NCBI RefSeq assembly: GCF_036250695.1
Contig: NZ_CP109427.1
Span: 3,658,001 to 3,722,000, forward strand
DNA: 64,000 bases
DNA from: Streptomyces sp. NBC_01497
GTDB lineage: Bacteria > Actinomycetota > Actinomycetes > Streptomycetales > Streptomycetaceae
Reading direction: 5' to 3'
Positions 18,096 through 31,291 of this stretch are shown in pieces. A program made the translations under genes and the position numbers. A model generated the notes under the pieces. That model saw nothing but the letters and a program-made list of their open reading frames with translations, was not told where the DNA came from and searched no databases. How positions within the stretch are numbered: the first letter of the stretch is position 1; every line of letters starts with the position of its first letter.

Positions 18096-18782
18096 TCACG
18101 CCACGCCGTTCACCCCCACCGACGAATCACCCGGCGCCGCCGGCCCCACCGGCCGCCCGGCCACGGCCTCCAGGGACTCGGGCGTGGCCGTCGTGCGCAG
18201 ACGCGGGAGCATGCCCGGGGCCGCGAGACCCGAGAGCAGCAACCGCCACAACGCGGAGATCCGGCCCGGCAGATCCTGCCGGTTGCTGTAGGCCTGGGAC
18301 ATCACCTGAAGGCCGGTGAACGCCCCGACCAGTGTCGACGCGACCTCGGCCGGGTCCGTACCGGGCAGCAGTTCACCCTGCCGGTCCGCCTGCCGCAGCA
18401 GATCCTCCACCACGGAGACCGCCTGGCTGTACGGGGTCCTGGCCGACGGCGAGAAGGACGACTGCTCGACGGCCAGGCGCACACTGGCCCGCAGCACCGT
18501 GTCGTGCTGCAGCCGCCACGCGAAGCGGAGGGTCAGGTCGATGACGGCCTGCAGCTTCACCGGCTGGTCCGGCACCACCAGGGCCTCGCCCTGCGCCTGG
18601 ACCAACGCGGTCGCGATCGCCTCCTTCGAGGGGAAGTGGTGGTACAGGGCGCCGCGCGTGAGTCCCGCCCTCGCGAGGATCTCGTTCGTGCTCGCCGCGT
18701 CGTACCCGCGTTCCCCGAACACTCCCGCGGCCGCCTCCAGGATCGAGCGTCTCGACCTGATGCCTCTCTCCTGCTGGGCCAT
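18096..18782 (-). CDS. TetR-family gamma-butyrolactone-receptor-like regulator (ArpA/ScbR type)
   Basis: This 228-aa repressor has an N-terminal HTH almost diagnostic of the ArpA/ScbR/CprB family: SRRSILEAAAGVFGERGYDA, then TNEILARAGLTRGALYHHF and PSKEAIA. The ligand-binding domain includes DLTLRFAWRLQHDTVLRASV. I chose ATG 18782 (MAQQERG), the conserved family start, over an upstream alternative. An inverted repeat (18811-18824) lies 28 bp upstream, consistent with autoregulation. It shares the island with an AfsA homologue and an atypical response regulator. Whether it binds a butyrolactone or is a pseudo-receptor responding to an antibiotic cannot be read from sequence. Confidence 0.9.
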   Translation of the reverse strand: MAQQERGIRSRRSILEAAAGVFGERGYDAASTNEILARAGLTRGALYHHFPSKEAIATALVQAQGEALVVPDQPVKLQAVIDLTLRFAWRLQHDTVLRASVRLAVEQSSFSPSARTPYSQAVSVVEDLLRQADRQGELLPGTDPAEVASTLVGAFTGLQVMSQAYSNRQDLPGRISALWRLLLSGLAAPGMLPRLRTTATPESLEAVAGRPVGPAAPGDSSVGVNGVA

Positions 18783-18810
18783 CCCCGATCCTCGCACTCC
18801 ACGCTAGAAA

Positions 18811-24709: not shown

Positions 24710-26857
24710 ATGAACCCCCGCACCATCGGCGCGTTCGACCTTCCCGACCGCCTCTCCCCCAAGGCCGACCCGGCGCTGATCGCGGGCGACGAGGAGCACT
24801 TCGCGGCCATCGCGGAGTCCCTCGACGAGTCGATCGCCGATCTGTCACAGCGCCTCGCCGACCTGCGCAGGGCGCCCGGCGGCCTGGGCCGCGACGCGAT
24901 GGACCGGGACACGGAGATCCACCGGCTGACCACGCGGCTGCGGACCCTGCGCCGCTTCGGCCTGGACCTGTGCCTCGGACACATGGTCGCGGCGGACGAC
25001 CCCGAGCCCGTGTACGTCGGGCGGCTCGGCCTCACCGACAGCACGGGCCGCCGGCTGCTGCTGGACTGGCGCTCCCCCGCCGTGGAGCCGTTCTTCGGAG
25101 CCACCCACGCCAACCCCATGGGCCTCGCGAGCCGCCGCAGATACCGCTGGAGCCGCGGCCGGATCAGCGACTACTGGGACGAGGTGTTCACCTCGGACGC
25201 CTTCGCCGGCCACGCCGCGCTCGACGACCAGTCCGCCTTCATCGCCAGCCTGGGCGGCAACCGGTCACCGCGGATGCGGGACGTCCTCGGCACCATCCAG
25301 GCCGACCAGGACGCCATCATCCGCGCGGGATCCCGCGGTGCTCTCGTCGTGGACGGCGGACCGGGCACGGGGAAGACCGTCGTCGCGCTGCACCGCTCCG
25401 CCTACCTGCTCTACTCCGACCCGCGCCTCGGCCATCGCAAGGGCGGCGTGCTGTTCGTGGGGCCCCACCAGCCCTACCTGGGTTACGTCGCCGACGTCCT
25501 GCCGAGCCTCGGGGAGGAGGGCGTTCAGACCTGCACGCTGCGGGACCTCGTGGCCGAGGGAGCCGCGGCGACAGCCGAGCCCGACCCGGACGTGGCGCGT
25601 CTGAAGGCGTCCGCGGACCTGGTGCGGGCGATCGAGCCGGCCGTCCGCTTCTACGAGGACCCGCCCACCCAGGGCATGACGATCACGACGCCGTGGTCCG
25701 ACATCCGGCTGAGCGCCGACGACTGGGCCGAGGCGTTCGAGGCGGCGGAACCCGGCACCCCGCACAACGAGGCACGCGAGCAGATCTGGGAGGAACTGCT
25801 CACGATCCTGATGGACAAGCACGACGGCGACACCGCGCCCGCCCTGCTGCGCAAAGCGCTGGAACAGGACAGGGACCTGCTCGGCGCCCTCCACCGCGCC
25901 TGGCCGCTCATCGAGGCGGCCGACCTCGTGGGTGACCTCTGGTCCGTCCCCGCCTACCTGCGCAAATGCGCTCCATGGCTCGGCCCCGACGACGTCCGCA
26001 AGCTGCGCCGCGAGGACTCCCATGCCTGGACGGTGTCCGACCTCCCGCTCCTCGACGCGGCACGGCAGCGGCTCGGCGACCCGATGGCGGCCCGCCACAA
26101 GCGCCGGCACAAGGCCGCTGTCGCCGCCGAGCGCGAACGCATGGACGTCGTCATCGACCGCATCCTGGAGGCCGACGAGGACGGCGAAGGCGCCGTGACG
26201 ATGCTGCACGGACAGGACCTGCGGGACAGCCTCGTGGATGAGGCGGTGCTGCCCACCGTCGACCCGGACGAGCTCGCGGGCCCCTTCGCGCACGTCGTCG
26301 TGGACGAGGCCCAGGAGCTGACGGACGCGGAATGGCAGATGCTGCTGCTCCGCTGCCCGTCCCGGAGCTTCACGATCGTCGGGGACCGCGCCCAGGCCCG
26401 GCACGGCTTCACGGAGTCGTGGCAGGAACGGCTCAAGCGGGTCGGGCTGGACCGGATCACCCTGGCCTCCCTGAGCATCAACTACCGCACGCCCGAAGAG
26501 ATCATGGCGGAAGCTGAGCCGGTCATCCGGGCCGTGCTCCCCGATGCCAACGTGCCGACCTCCATCCGCGGCAGCGGCCTCCCCGTCGTCCACGGAGCGG
26601 CCTCGGACCTCGGCTCGGTCCTCGACACCTGGCTCGCCGCCAATGCCGACGGCACCGCCTGCGTCATCGGCGATCCCGCCTTCCGCCCGACGGCCCGCAT
26701 CCGCTCACTGACACCGGAACTGTCGAAGGGCCTCGAATTCGACCTGGTCGTCCTCGTCGATCCGGAGAACTTCGGCGAGGGCGTCGAGGGAGCGGTCGAC
26801 CGCTACGTCGCGATGACCCGGGCGACCCGCCGGCTCGTCATCCTCACCAGCTCCTGA
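24710..26857 (+). CDS. helR: HelR-type RNA polymerase recycling helicase-like ATPase (HelD family)
   Basis: This 715-aa UvrD-like motor protein frees stalled or rifamycin-bound RNA polymerase in known relatives. An N-terminal coiled-coil arm (about 25-95, EEHFAAIAESLDESIADLSQ, HRLTTRLRTLRR) fits the secondary-channel arm of HelD/HelR. The family DWRSPAVEPFF segment follows. Walker A GGPGTGKT is at 216-223, Walker B VVVDEAQELTD, motif III ASFTIVGDRAQ-like, and motif VI VAMTRATRRLVIL at the C-terminus. Length equals described HelR proteins. The start is ATG 24710, with only a weak Shine-Dalgarno. An RAE lies about 470 bp upstream, indicating rifamycin induction. An 11-bp repeat overlaps the stop codon. 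Confidence 0.93.
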   Translation: MNPRTIGAFDLPDRLSPKADPALIAGDEEHFAAIAESLDESIADLSQRLADLRRAPGGLGRDAMDRDTEIHRLTTRLRTLRRFGLDLCLGHMVAADDPEPVYVGRLGLTDSTGRRLLLDWRSPAVEPFFGATHANPMGLASRRRYRWSRGRISDYWDEVFTSDAFAGHAALDDQSAFIASLGGNRSPRMRDVLGTIQADQDAIIRAGSRGALVVDGGPGTGKTVVALHRSAYLLYSDPRLGHRKGGVLFVGPHQPYLGYVADVLPSLGEEGVQTCTLRDLVAEGAAATAEPDPDVARLKASADLVRAIEPAVRFYEDPPTQGMTITTPWSDIRLSADDWAEAFEAAEPGTPHNEAREQIWEELLTILMDKHDGDTAPALLRKALEQDRDLLGALHRAWPLIEAADLVGDLWSVPAYLRKCAPWLGPDDVRKLRREDSHAWTVSDLPLLDAARQRLGDPMAARHKRRHKAAVAAERERMDVVIDRILEADEDGEGAVTMLHGQDLRDSLVDEAVLPTVDPDELAGPFAHVVVDEAQELTDAEWQMLLLRCPSRSFTIVGDRAQARHGFTESWQERLKRVGLDRITLASLSINYRTPEEIMAEAEPVIRAVLPDANVPTSIRGSGLPVVHGAASDLGSVLDTWLAANADGTACVIGDPAFRPTARIRSLTPELSKGLEFDLVVLVDPENFGEGVEGAVDRYVAMTRATRRLVILTSS

Positions 26858-26903
26858 CCCGTTCCTGACCCGTTCCTGACCCGTTCCTGATCCGTTCCTG
26901 ACC
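26852..26903. repeat. 11-bp tandem repeat across the helR stop codon
   Basis: TCCTGACCCGT repeats 4.7 times, the fourth copy having TCCTGATCCGT. The stop TGA of helR lies in the first copy. Copy-number change by slippage would add or remove units after the stop without altering the protein. Confidence 0.85.
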
Positions 26904-27195
26904 AGGGAAGACCGAAGGGCGGGGTGCGGCTGAACGCCGTACACGATGTCGGGCAGACCTTCGACAGCCAGACTTTCGACAGCCAGGGGAACCCGCCGCC
27001 CCGAACGTGCCGGCCCCCTGTCCGCAGATCGCGGGCCGACCGGCGCGACCCCGTCCGCCTTGGCCGCCGTCGTGGGTAGCCATTACGCACCTTTGAGTCC
27101 ATAATGACCATGTCCGTCCGTAGATGGTCAGCCGGAAAGGCCGCGTAGGGCACGACCGCAGCGGGCGGGTTCGCGGCCCTGCCGAAAGGTGTGCC
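26904..27195. promoter_or_regulatory. Upstream region of the profilin-like gene
   Basis: This 292-bp gap is AT-richer around 27078-27130 (TAGCCATTACGCACC, CATAATGACCATG). CATAAT at 27100-27105 is a possible -10 hexamer. GAAAGGTG 10 bp before ATG 27196 supplies the ribosome-binding site. No operator is evident. Confidence 0.4.
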
Positions 27196-27582
27196 ATGGC
27201 TACGTTGCAGGAGTATGTGGACAAGGAACTGGTGGGCACGAACAACGTCCGCCGCGCGGCCATCATCCATGCCGATGACGGCGGCACCTGGGCGGAGAGT
27301 GACGGAGGCCTGCTGGAGGCCGGCGAGGGTGCGGCCATCGTCGCCCTGTTCAAGGACCCGGGCGAGGTGCACAGCAAGGGCGTCGTCGTCGGCGGGGAAC
27401 AGTTCGTGGGGGTCAAGGGCGACGAGAAGTCGATCTGCGCCACGAAGGGCGCGGACGGCGTCGCGATCGCCAGGACGGACCGGACCATCGTCATCGGCTA
27501 CTACCAGGAGGGCGAGGCGCCCTGCGACGCCCTGCTGACCGTCGGGAACGTCGCCGACAGCCTCCGCGAGAACGGCTACTGA
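27196..27582 (+). CDS. Profilin-like protein
   Basis: This 128-aa single-domain cytosolic protein has no signal peptide. It aligns by eye end to end with eukaryotic profilins of 125-131 residues, especially protist ones. Matching segments: YVDKELVGTNNVRRAAII (7-24) with the profilin YVDxxLVGTGxVxxAAII start; DDGGTWAES (27-35, W32 conserved); AAIVALFKDPG; KGVVVGGEQFVGVKGDEKSI (61-80); KGADGVAIARTDRTIVIGYY (84-103); and terminal helix VGNVADSLRENGY. In eukaryotes profilin binds actin and proline-rich peptides; of the aromatic clamp, Y7, W32 and Y128 are present but the first Trp is Leu4. Codon use is mostly Streptomyces-like. It is monocistronic with its own terminator. The function in a bacterium is unknown. 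Confidence 0.88.
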   Translation: MATLQEYVDKELVGTNNVRRAAIIHADDGGTWAESDGGLLEAGEGAAIVALFKDPGEVHSKGVVVGGEQFVGVKGDEKSICATKGADGVAIARTDRTIVIGYYQEGEAPCDALLTVGNVADSLRENGY

Positions 27583-27612
27583 GGGACACCCGCCCACGAG
27601 ACGCGCGACCAC

Positions 27613-27645
27613 GCCCCCTGCCCGGCGATACACCGGGCAGGGGGC
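27613..27645 (+). terminator. Terminator after the profilin-like gene
   Basis: A perfect 13-bp stem (27613-27625 with 27633-27645) has a 7-nt loop and lies 31 bp after the stop codon. Confidence 0.85.
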
Positions 27646-28152
27646 GCTTCCGGCTTCTGCCCGGGGCCGGGCGGCCCGGGCAAGAACCGTGGGCCCGGCG
27701 TTGCGACGGACTGCGGCCTTGTCCGTCACGCCGCGTGCGTTGGAAAGGAACGTGGCTCCTCAGCCCACACCGGCCATGCCCGAGCAAGGCAATTCCCACG
27801 CGCACAGCAACCCTCCCAACATGCCGCCACGTCGCGGCCATCCGCCGGACTTCGCCGGCCGTTCGCGATGAGGGCAAGCGATCCTGAGGAGGCGAGCCGA
27901 GCTCTCGACTCCGGACGGGTACGTGACAGCCGGCGGGGGGCGAGGACGGCGTCGTCGTCCGTGTCGGCGAGGCACCGAAGGCCGCTCCGTCCACCGCAAC
28001 CCATGCCCCCGCAGTTCGACGGGAGTCGACCTTGTCGCGCACGGCACGCGACTCGATTCGAAGTGCCCGGGTCTCGGCGTTCTGTAGCGTTCGCGCTCAG
28101 TCAACGGGGATGATGGTGCTCAACAGCACGTGACCGGGACGGGAGGGAGCAG
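27646..28152. other. Intergenic region, no gene recognised
   Basis: About 500 bp separate the profilin terminator and the DUF433 gene. Open frames on both strands are chance frames without RBS. The last 60 bp (TAGCGTTCGCGCTCAG onward) probably hold the toxin-antitoxin promoter. Confidence 0.45.
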
Positions 28153-28788
28153 ATGGCGTACTCGACCCGCATGGCCGCAGCCCTCTCCGGAGCGACGGTC
28201 GGACAACTGCGCACGTGGCGACAGGACCGGGGCAACGGGCCGATCCTCCGGCCCGAGCTGGCAACCCGCCCGGCTCTGTACTCCTTCCGGGACGTGCTCG
28301 CGCTGCGCGCGTTCGCCCACCTTCGTCAGGACACTTCCCTGCAGAAGATCCGCGTGGCCCTGACCACCCTGAAGAAAATCGGGGAGGTCGAACACCTTTC
28401 CAGTTACACCCTGGTGTCCGAGGGCGACTCGATCGTCCTCGGGGGTCACGATGACCACGGCACCGACCTGGTCGAACGTCCTGGCCAACGCGTGATCGCC
28501 ACGATGGCCGACATCCTGCAGGAATTCGCTCCGAGAGCCGGCGTCGTGGTCCCTCACCTGCTGCGGCCGAAGCACCACGTCACGGTCGATCCAGAGACGC
28601 AGGGCGGACAGCCCGTGATCACGGGCACGAGGATCCCCTTCGACGCCGTCGCGGAGCTGGTCGAGGACGGCATCCCGCCGGAGAAGATCGCGGACTACTA
28701 CCCCGGTGTCACCGCGGACGCCGCACGCGACGCGGCTTCCTTCGCCCTCTACGTGGACAGCTACAGCACGGGAGCGCGCGCTGCCTGA
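28153..28788 (+). CDS. Antitoxin-like protein: MerR-type HTH plus DUF433
   Basis: This 211-aa protein has an N-terminal MerR-like winged HTH (MAYSTRMAAALSGATVGQLR, LYSFRDVLALRAFAHLR, LQKIRVALTTLKKIG). Its C-terminal DUF433 domain has HVTVDPETQGGQPVITGTRI, VAELVEDGIPPEKIADYYPG and TADAARDAASFALYVD. DUF433 proteins usually partner PIN-like DUF5615 proteins as VapB-style antitoxins. The downstream gene is exactly that, overlapping by one base (TGATG). The fused DNA-binding domain suggests operon autoregulation. ATG 28153 follows GGGAGGGAG. Confidence 0.88.
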   Translation: MAYSTRMAAALSGATVGQLRTWRQDRGNGPILRPELATRPALYSFRDVLALRAFAHLRQDTSLQKIRVALTTLKKIGEVEHLSSYTLVSEGDSIVLGGHDDHGTDLVERPGQRVIATMADILQEFAPRAGVVVPHLLRPKHHVTVDPETQGGQPVITGTRIPFDAVAELVEDGIPPEKIADYYPGVTADAARDAASFALYVDSYSTGARAA

Positions 28789-29228
28789 TGCGGATCCTCA
28801 TCGATGAGAACGTCCCCGTACAGGTGCTGGAGATGCTCAGACGGATCCTGCCCGAACACGAGATCAAGCACGTCAGTGAGATCAGGTGGGCGGGCAAGAA
28901 GGATCTCGCGCTTCTCCCCGACGCCGCGAGAAAGGGCTTCGACGCCTTCCTGACCAGGGACGCCCGACAGCTGGAGGATCCGTCGGAGACCGAGGCCATC
29001 AAGAAGTCGGGCATGCACCACATCCGCTTCAGCCAGGCGCACAGGGGCATGTCAGGCCTCGGCCTGGCGATGGGCGCGGTGGTCGCGGCGATGCCCCTGG
29101 TCATTGCCGAACTCGGCGAAGCAGGTATCCAGCAGCTGATCCACATCAAGGGCCTGAGCCCCGTGAGCAAGCACCGATTCGACCGTGTGGACCCGTCCGC
29201 GTCACCACCGTCGTACTGGCCTCGGTAG
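28788..29228 (+). CDS. PIN-like (DUF5615/Mut7-C type) putative toxin nuclease
   Basis: This 146-aa protein begins MRILIDENVPVQVLEMLRRI, the DUF5615 start whose Asp/Glu (D6, E7) form part of a PIN active site. ARKGFDAFLTRDARQLEDP carries the second acidic pair (TRD). After about residue 80 it is a helical tail (GLAMGAVVAAMPLVIAELGE). Translation is coupled to the DUF433 gene through a TGATG overlap. PIN proteins in this arrangement are RNases; activity here is inferred. A MerR-HTH/DUF433 fusion with a PIN-like partner is a less common VapBC-like layout. Confidence 0.85.
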   Translation: MRILIDENVPVQVLEMLRRILPEHEIKHVSEIRWAGKKDLALLPDAARKGFDAFLTRDARQLEDPSETEAIKKSGMHHIRFSQAHRGMSGLGLAMGAVVAAMPLVIAELGEAGIQQLIHIKGLSPVSKHRFDRVDPSASPPSYWPR

Positions 29229-30024
29229 CCGCACCGCACCACACCGGTCGCAAGCCCGTCGCGGCGGGGCCCGACGGGATCACCTATTCGGTGTTGATGC
29301 CGTCTCGACCAGCTTGGCGATGAATTCGGCACTCGCGTGCAGCTCCCGCGTGTACCAGATCACGCAGTCCCACGGGCGGTCTGAAAAAGGCCGTGCGGTC
29401 GGACGATGCGCTCTGCACCGAACCGCTGGGGAAGCGTGTGGAGAGCTTCGCCGCTCACTCTCGCCTGCGCCACACCGCCGTGACGCCCGCCCGCCCGCCG
29501 GGCCAACGCCGTCAGGTCGCACCTCTGCCTCGGGTGCCTCTACCACCAGTAGGGGATGGGCCCCACCTGGGACCAGATCCACGCGTGGGCCGAAATCGCC
29601 GAATCAGTAACGGAATTGACTCGTTGGCCGGGTCGCCGGCCCGGGTGTCTGATAAGTCTTCTGACGGGGGCCGGGCTTATGCCGGGCCCGCGGCGACTCT
29701 TGGGGTGCCGCAGGGGGAGGGGACGTACATGAGCGCCACCGGACGCGACGAGATCATCGCTTGTAGAAACCCGCGACACGGTCGTCGTGCTGTAAACCAC
29801 CCCGCCGGCGGAGAAGGGTCCAAGGCCCCGCCTACGCCCCCGGGTGAGAACTCCTTCGAAGGCTTTGCGCGCACCGCGTCGACTTCATGAGTTCAACCTC
29901 AGCAACGAGCAGATCGACCAGTGCAGGGGCTTCGGACATCGACCCCCGCGCTGCGGCTTCCACCCACGTGTCGGCAGGCAGGGCATCGTGGCCCCGGCGA
30001 TCACAGTCGAACTGGAGAACCACA
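29229..30024. other. Gene-poor region with signs of eroded coding sequence
   Basis: About 800 bp without a whole gene. On the - strand 29280-29370 reads as a coding-like C-terminus (CVIWYTRELHASAEFIAKLV) ending at a TGA at 29280-29282, but the frame has no matching N-terminus. On + a short frame at 29555-29731 begins MGPTWDQIHAWAEIAES and then degenerates. Another at 29729-29890 starts MSATGRDEIIA after GGGGGAGGGG. Codon third positions are GC-biased only over these short parts. I read the region as remnants of small genes; none is called. Confidence 0.4.
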
Positions 30025-31211: not shown

Positions 31212-31217
31212 CGGAGG

Positions 31218-31291
31218 AGCCTCCTGTCGGATTCGAACCGACGACCTACGCATTACAAGTGCGTTGCTCTGGCCAGCTGAGCTAAGGAGGC
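31218..31291 (-). tRNA. tRNA-Thr (anticodon TGT)
   Basis: On the - strand a complete cloverleaf can be folded: acceptor GCCTCCT/AGGAGGC, D arm GCTC..GAGC, anticodon arm ACGCA-CTTGTAA-TGCGT with anticodon TGT, and T arm GTCGG-TTCGAAT-CCGAC. CCA is not encoded in full. Confidence 0.95.

Follow-up and report, generated by a model that had tools for sequence, protein, structure and literature searches.

Why does a Streptomyces chromosome encode a profilin, an actin-managing protein of animals, plants and amoebae, and what might the protein bind there? The question is raised by a gene on a 64,000-nucleotide stretch of the Streptomyces sp. NBC_01497 chromosome (the whole stretch is called the window below), for which an earlier note, made from the sequence letters, had claimed a full-length profilin-like product. 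We found that this chromosome carries a genuine, complete profilin gene. As for its role, we propose, with a probability of roughly 0.5, that the gene was captured from an amoebozoan-like eukaryote and retained as a small cytosolic adaptor that would work inside the Streptomyces cell, its former actin face having been re-tuned to contact a partner of the bacterium, with an MreB/Mbl-type filament protein as the likeliest candidate, while a partly kept polyproline clamp (Y7, W32, L123 and Y128) may still bind a proline-rich segment weakly. The direction of transfer, the donor and the use of the replaced residues as a new binding surface are deduced from sequence comparison, and the proposal is at its weakest in naming a partner.

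A genuine and complete profilin gene

27196–27582, forward strand: profilin gene of the window type (class A, defined below), 128 residues, stop codon included in the coordinates; identified by open reading frame (ORF) translation, hidden Markov model (HMM), PDB search and predicted fold

The ORF gives an uninterrupted 128-residue translation, which matched the profilin family PF00235 with an E value of 3.1e-33 and 115 bits (cut-off 25), over residues 4–128 of the protein and positions 3–127 of the 127-position profile. The claimed full-length product is thereby confirmed, and the lack of a significant HMM match, which the earlier note would have taken as a refutation, did not occur. A PDB sequence search afforded 28 distinct chains at E <= 0.001, with Acanthamoeba profilin II (1f2k, E 1.2e-20) as the top match and the Acanthamoeba profilins as the nearest solved sequences. 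Structure prediction and structural comparison, both suggested beforehand, yielded a profilin fold with a root-mean-square deviation of 1.2 from solved profilins; the Roadblock/LC7 HMM gave no match, and profilin was the sole Pfam family at E <= 1. Chance similarity or another fold is ruled out by the strong PF00235 and PDB matches together with the predicted fold. Assembly contamination was also rejected, because the gene sits within a contig of 8.55 Mb, has a third-position GC content (GC3) of 0.92 and has relatives in other assemblies; these third positions are host-like, as had been claimed of the codons. An alternative in-frame start at 27124 would give 152 residues, and the class A proteins P0002, P0003, P0004 and P0006, whose N-termini are predicted to be complete, are 128 residues long, in agreement with the start at 27196.

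Sparse but real profilins in Streptomyces

When the single sequence was searched against 5.8 billion proteins, the matches were the window protein itself and five relatives, with identities of 87, 77, 69, 69 and 60%. Two alignment-based searches, one from six bacterial rows and one from four rows of a second type, in which the best 7999 and 7997 candidates by shared words were scored, gave at least 28 and at least 24 proteins, respectively. The homologues in other actinomycetes, for which the earlier note had wished to look, were indeed detected: PF00235 matched in 8 of 392 Streptomyces genomes, 3 of 100 relatives and 3 of 394 genomes across the bacterial class (the own genome being counted each time), and in none of 14 control genomes. 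The eight Streptomyces carriers comprise two genomes with class A (P0001–P0006; G000 and G151), four with class B (the type of P0029–P0051; G046, G039, G424 and G227) and one with class C (the type of P0007, P0008, P0011, P0012 and P0016; G247), and the eighth, G230, holds a profilin fragment (L020) in a Streptomyces contig, which we placed in none of the three classes. The window protein is not the sole Streptomyces profilin; the set is sparse but real, with at least three classes.

Many of these profilins already bear the NCBI name 'profilin'. The statement in the earlier note that no Streptomyces profilin had been described holds for the literature searched but not for the databases, where they are known by this automatic name. 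A Streptomyces profilin was mentioned in no title or abstract start in the literature searched, a scope that excludes most subscription papers and bioRxiv, and is not discussed in the available portions of PMC2442094, PMC7203096, PMC2651865, PMC4316618 and PMC9169541.

Several observations on the other profilins may be recorded here. The class B profilins of L012, L013, L023 and L024 are 54–71% identical to P0029, and within a few kb of them lie genes for a SpoIIE phosphatase, Hsp20, a STAS protein, GvpO, GvpF/L and a CBS protein; this nearness to stress-type genes is a plain observation, without a comparison with chance. Many class B profilins (P0029–P0051) have a proline-rich tail after the last helix, as if the type of ligand of the lost clamp sat on the protein itself. 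One class C profilin (L022:7749–8195, reverse strand) lies between CoA-ligase-type and NicO-type transporter genes, and the class C cluster of P0008 represents 22 member sequences at 90% identity. An actinobacterial profilin of another family (L026:1501–1857, forward strand, genome G548) has one in-frame TGA and looks like a decaying recent arrival, and a Protofrankia-type profilin without the N-terminal helix (P0009, L027:1501–1812, forward strand) shares 54% identity with a Dictyostelium profilin across 104 columns.

Signs of retention of the gene and its leader

All six class A sequences have an open frame, P0005 being predicted to have a longer tail and to lack the first helix. The Nei–Gojobori dN/dS ratio was 0.245 between the window gene and that of Streptomyces sp. 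8L, 0.71 between the window gene and that of S. fuscigenes, and 0.557 between the latter two. Ratios below 1 together with open frames suggest a function. The signals around the gene are as follows.

27100–27105, forward strand: -10-like hexamer CATAAT, a predicted promoter element (CACAAT and TACAAT in two other class A loci)
27103–27583, forward strand: shared unit of leader and gene, common to the window, Streptomyces sp. 8L and S. fuscigenes
27111–27132, forward strand: class A leader element TGTCCGTCCGTAGATGGTCAGC, a single copy in the genome
27184–27189, forward strand: GAAAGG, resembling a ribosome-binding site (RBS), 6 nucleotides upstream of the ATG (consensus GAA[AG]GG over the three class A loci for which DNA was available)
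27612–27646, forward strand: 14-pair hairpin 3' of the gene (z -4.67), a possible terminator without a T-run

The DNA of Streptomyces sp. 8L matched the window at 27111–27583 with 87.6% identity (16.4 kb compared), and that of S. fuscigenes at 27103–27583 with 73.3% (10.2 kb compared); beyond leader and gene, no DNA match at E <= 1e-5 was found in the fetched flanks of either. The shared class A unit consists of the gene and a leader of about 90 bases, flanked by different genes in the three Streptomyces loci. The leader motif TGTC[CT]G[TC]CC..ATG[GT]TCAGC was present in 7 of 68 fetched loci, each a stretch around one of three distinct class A genes, and the window version occurs once in the host genome at <=3 mismatches, as does a reversed control pattern. 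No riboswitch is claimed, since only one pair in the consensus fold of the three leaders has a two-sided change, and the search of the leader for known RNA families gave a single sub-threshold, chance-like match, located in the 3' hairpin. The RBS that the earlier note had assigned to the gene corresponds to the GAAAGG hexamer, and its terminator stands as a strong hairpin but without a T-run, and a consensus terminator scan found none. The equivalent 3' stretches of S. fuscigenes (z -1.52) and 8L (z -0.09) are not outstanding.

These data bear on a rather unlikely alternative, namely that the gene is a transient passenger, one of the eukaryotic genes that occasionally enter Streptomyces, and persists for a time without a function. 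The patchy spread of PF00235, the decayed look of other actinobacterial copies (the in-frame TGA of L026 and the missing N-terminus of the Protofrankia type) and the high dN/dS in two of the three pairs would be expected of a passenger. Against this, six class A frames have stayed open, the five others being 60–87% identical to the window protein; the leader is conserved, and all six class A sequences share a set of unchanged residues that includes two cysteines. The earlier view that the gene is retained thus gains from the open frames, the dN/dS below 1 in three pairs and the leader.

An altered actin face

We tabulated residues over 6 class A, 22 class B (without P0047 and P0052), 5 class C and 19 eukaryotic rows (without P0027), 7 of the 19 being grouped as eukaryotic by similarity or source, and P0005 being truncated after residue 116. 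The GKK-motif lysine (K83 position) is K in 19/19 eukaryote rows and T in four, H in one and K in one of the class A rows, with Thr in the window protein. Position 82 is G in all 19 eukaryote rows and Ala in the window protein, and position 110 is G in 14 of them and Cys in the window protein, so that conserved basic and glycine residues on the strand and loop that face actin are replaced at 82, 83 and 110. At six positions (T31, G75, C81, A82, A108 and C110) class A is invariant and departs from a eukaryote majority of >=60%; five of the six fall on predicted strands 4 and 5 (68–75 and 79–84) or around the predicted start of the last helix (109).

The polyproline clamp, which we take to be formed by W3, Y6, W31, H133, L134 and Y139 in human profilin, is partly kept, with Y7, W32, L123 and Y128 in place. 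The Leu that the earlier note had seen at the leading Trp is Leu4, to which we add Ser122 at the second clamp position, where 18 of the 19 eukaryote rows have Tyr. When the last 22 residues are aligned without gaps to those of human profilin, C110 matches the last Gly of the V119–G122 loop. In PMC8410842 the actin contacts of eukaryotes are given as D87, R89, K91, V119–G122, N125, K126 and Y129, and the invariant C81, A82, A108 and C110 appear from the alignment to lie at or beside these contacts. The actin-facing surface of class A thus looks rebuilt. Class B has K or R at the K83 position in 21/22 rows and W32 in 5/22, with neither a Trp before the second strand (0/22) nor an aromatic residue after the last helix (0/22); a Tyr in the N-terminal part occurs in 11/22 by an alignment-free count, so that the contrast with class A is weaker there, and the N-terminus of P0032 has no Trp or Tyr.

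The altered face also bears on an unlikely explanation in which the protein acts on eukaryotes, being released upon attack by amoebae or fungi, or upon hyphal lysis, to sequester or disturb their actin. Streptomyces live in soil, the nearest proteins of solved structure come from amoebae and a dictyostelid is the neighbour in the tree, all of which would suit such a target. However, the N-terminus MATLQEYVDKELVGT is predicted to form the first profilin helix rather than an export signal, no secretion-type domain was found in the five window neighbours tested, and the window protein has other residues at the lysine universal in the eukaryote rows and at two Gly positions.

Candidate partners in the host and actin regulators in the genus

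If the captured protein works inside the Streptomyces cell, its partner is likely bacterial, because no eukaryotic-type actin gene was found beside the window profilin or in the host genome by the PF00022 search. This search afforded weak matches in the host (best 3.6e-6), and two matching frames are MreB-like by eye; the strongest matches in G039 and G227 are MreB/Mbl-like by eye, and other profilin carriers have matches of similar strength. MreB/Mbl would be the most natural replacement, since this is the relative of actin that occurs in the host. A gelsolin search, which had no positive control, found none in 24 carrier genomes.

L050–L068, genomes G338, G290, G324, G024, G046, G039 and others: ADF/cofilin loci, by PF00241

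ADF/cofilin (PF00241) was detected in 17 of 392 Streptomyces genomes and in none of 14 controls, and hmmscan confirmed all six cofilins tested, with 32 to 128 bits. The window genome has no PF00241 match, and G046 and G039 each carry a cofilin with their class B profilin. The overlap of carriers (2 of the 8 profilin carriers, hypergeometric p 0.043; 2 of the 4 class B carriers, p 0.010) is only suggestive, given that the genomes share ancestry and that the test was picked once the data were known. In L066 (1477–2490, reverse strand), one frame encodes a STAS domain with a cofilin domain behind it, an arrangement that would tie an actin-type regulator to a stress-switch module.

A wider proposal, which we consider distinctly improbable, is that Streptomyces repeatedly captured eukaryotic actin regulators (at least three profilin classes and ADF/cofilins, one of them read as STAS-fused) and re-aimed them at MreB-type filaments, class A by a rebuilt face in which the invariant C81 and C110 would form a redox- or metal-controlled contact, and class B by keeping the basic residue and losing most of the clamp. 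If true, classes A and B would represent distinct routes by which a single eukaryotic protein was adapted to bacteria.

Origin of the class A profilins

The tree was built from 43 rows, comprising 27 of the 28 proteins of the first alignment search, 11 of the 24 of the second and 5 PDB chains; P0026 (partial) was left out, P0005 was again cut, and no Asgard or Microcystis rows were among the 43. Class A formed one clade (support 100/99) that joins Dictyostelium citrinum (81/60) and the Protofrankia copy (92/77), and class B (100/100) and class C (100/99) formed separate clades. Among five approximately unbiased (AU) tests, uncorrected, a joint clade of A and C was rejected (p 0.027), that of all four bacterial groups A to D was not quite rejected (p 0.059), and A with B (p 0.115), B with C (p 0.288) and A with D (p 0.28) were not rejected. 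Several independent captures by Streptomyces are thus likely, in view of the separate clades, but not proven, given the mixed AU tests. Among named eukaryotic rows, the highest identity to the window protein is 46% (P0010), and the donor of class A was probably amoebozoan, as our best guess from the tree. A highly improbable alternative, an old bacterial or Asgard-like profilin lineage with no capture from eukaryotes, could draw on the p value of 0.059, the Protofrankia row within the group of class A and the existence of Asgard profilins (PMC8410842, in the part available), but runs against the rejected A and C clade, the grouping of class A with Dictyostelium and Protofrankia apart from classes B and C, and the absence of homologues from the 14 control genomes.

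Capture from an amoebozoan-like donor and re-tuning towards a bacterial filament is the reading we prefer, and the following points weigh against it. Class A is rare (2 of 392 Streptomyces genomes), and no partner gene adjoins the window profilin. Eukaryote-grade actin was found in none of the 392 Streptomyces genomes at E <= 1e-14, in a search in which no positive control rang. The donor of class A has moderate tree support, and a single bacterial origin of all the classes is not rejected (p 0.059). Within the subclade of the window profilin the clamp is being lost, Streptomyces sp. 8L lacking W32 as well; the nearness of C81 to C110 and surface exposure are presumed, and the ratios of 0.71 and 0.557 are as compatible with loose selection as with adaptation.

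The sparse, diverged Streptomyces profilins, for which no eukaryote-type actin was found, make it testable what a profilin does when actin is absent. They offer natural variants that differ in how their binding faces were altered, and they bear on gene flow from soil protists to antibiotic-producing bacteria.

Surroundings of the gene

Among the window, 8L and S. fuscigenes loci, no conserved class A gene neighbourhood was found when we compared ORFs of >=90 residues with GC3 >=0.75, setting aside the profilin, its antisense frame and the identical DNA of L015 and L021 (same contig). The sole other protein match was weak (41% over 54 residues, window 18096–18797 and L014 11367–12029), between genes that sit 9 kb and 3 kb from the profilin. 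The window neighbours of the profilin carry unrelated Pfam domains. No clean empty site was seen among the relatives' matches to window 26000–29300; among the matches listed, many relatives cover the helicase gene and end near 26,880, and two genomes also match a DUF433/PIN pair at 68–70%. Carriage by phages or plasmids was not supported, as tblastn gave no match in 50,697 phage and 72,556 plasmid records, and none of 106 pattern matches in viral contigs was confirmed as a profilin.

Three further features were observed in the surrounding DNA.

26853–26905, forward strand: short cctgacccgttc-like unit, repeated in tandem several times about where the helicase gene ends
28153–29228, forward strand: two adjoining ORFs, MerR-like/DUF433 and PIN_10/DUF5615, an apparent toxin–antitoxin pair by domains
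31216–31291, reverse strand: tRNA-Thr (anticodon TGT), about 3.6 kb downstream of the profilin, a possible island border

Comparison with known systems

A precedent for capture is PfnM of Microcystis aeruginosa PCC 7806, a eukaryotic profilin gene taken up by a bacterium; in 2012 PfnM was described as the sole homologue of a eukaryotic actin-binding protein known from prokaryotes (PMC3254629, in the part available). According to the same part, PfnM adjoins the eukaryote-type actin ActM (65% identity) and binds and decorates ActM filaments, whereas no such actin was found for the window profilin. By the published figures, on which the comparison relies, PfnM is 84% identical to a eukaryotic profilin, in contrast to at most 46% for the window protein. 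In the available 2009 table of PMC2651865, profilin has 'No orthologs' in prokaryotes, and a cofilin homologue is given only for Streptomyces, a single one, as a probable gene transfer.

The Acanthamoeba castellanii profilins I and II (1acf, 1prq, 1f2k/2acg) resemble the window protein in length, in full-length alignment and in predicted fold, and differ at the leading Trp (Leu4), the GKK motif (ATK), the Gly of the loop before the last helix (Cys110) and the second clamp Tyr (Ser122). The Asgard profilins (Loki, Odin and Heimdall; PMC8410842), of which that of Heimdall acts on the actin of its own organism according to the portion available, have far lower identity to the window protein (Odin 18%), which resembles the amoeban sequences. 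The class B and C profilins of Streptomyces are PF00235 proteins like that of the window and belong to separate clades, and class B keeps K or R at the K83 position (21/22) but lacks a Trp ahead of the second strand and an aromatic residue behind the last helix.
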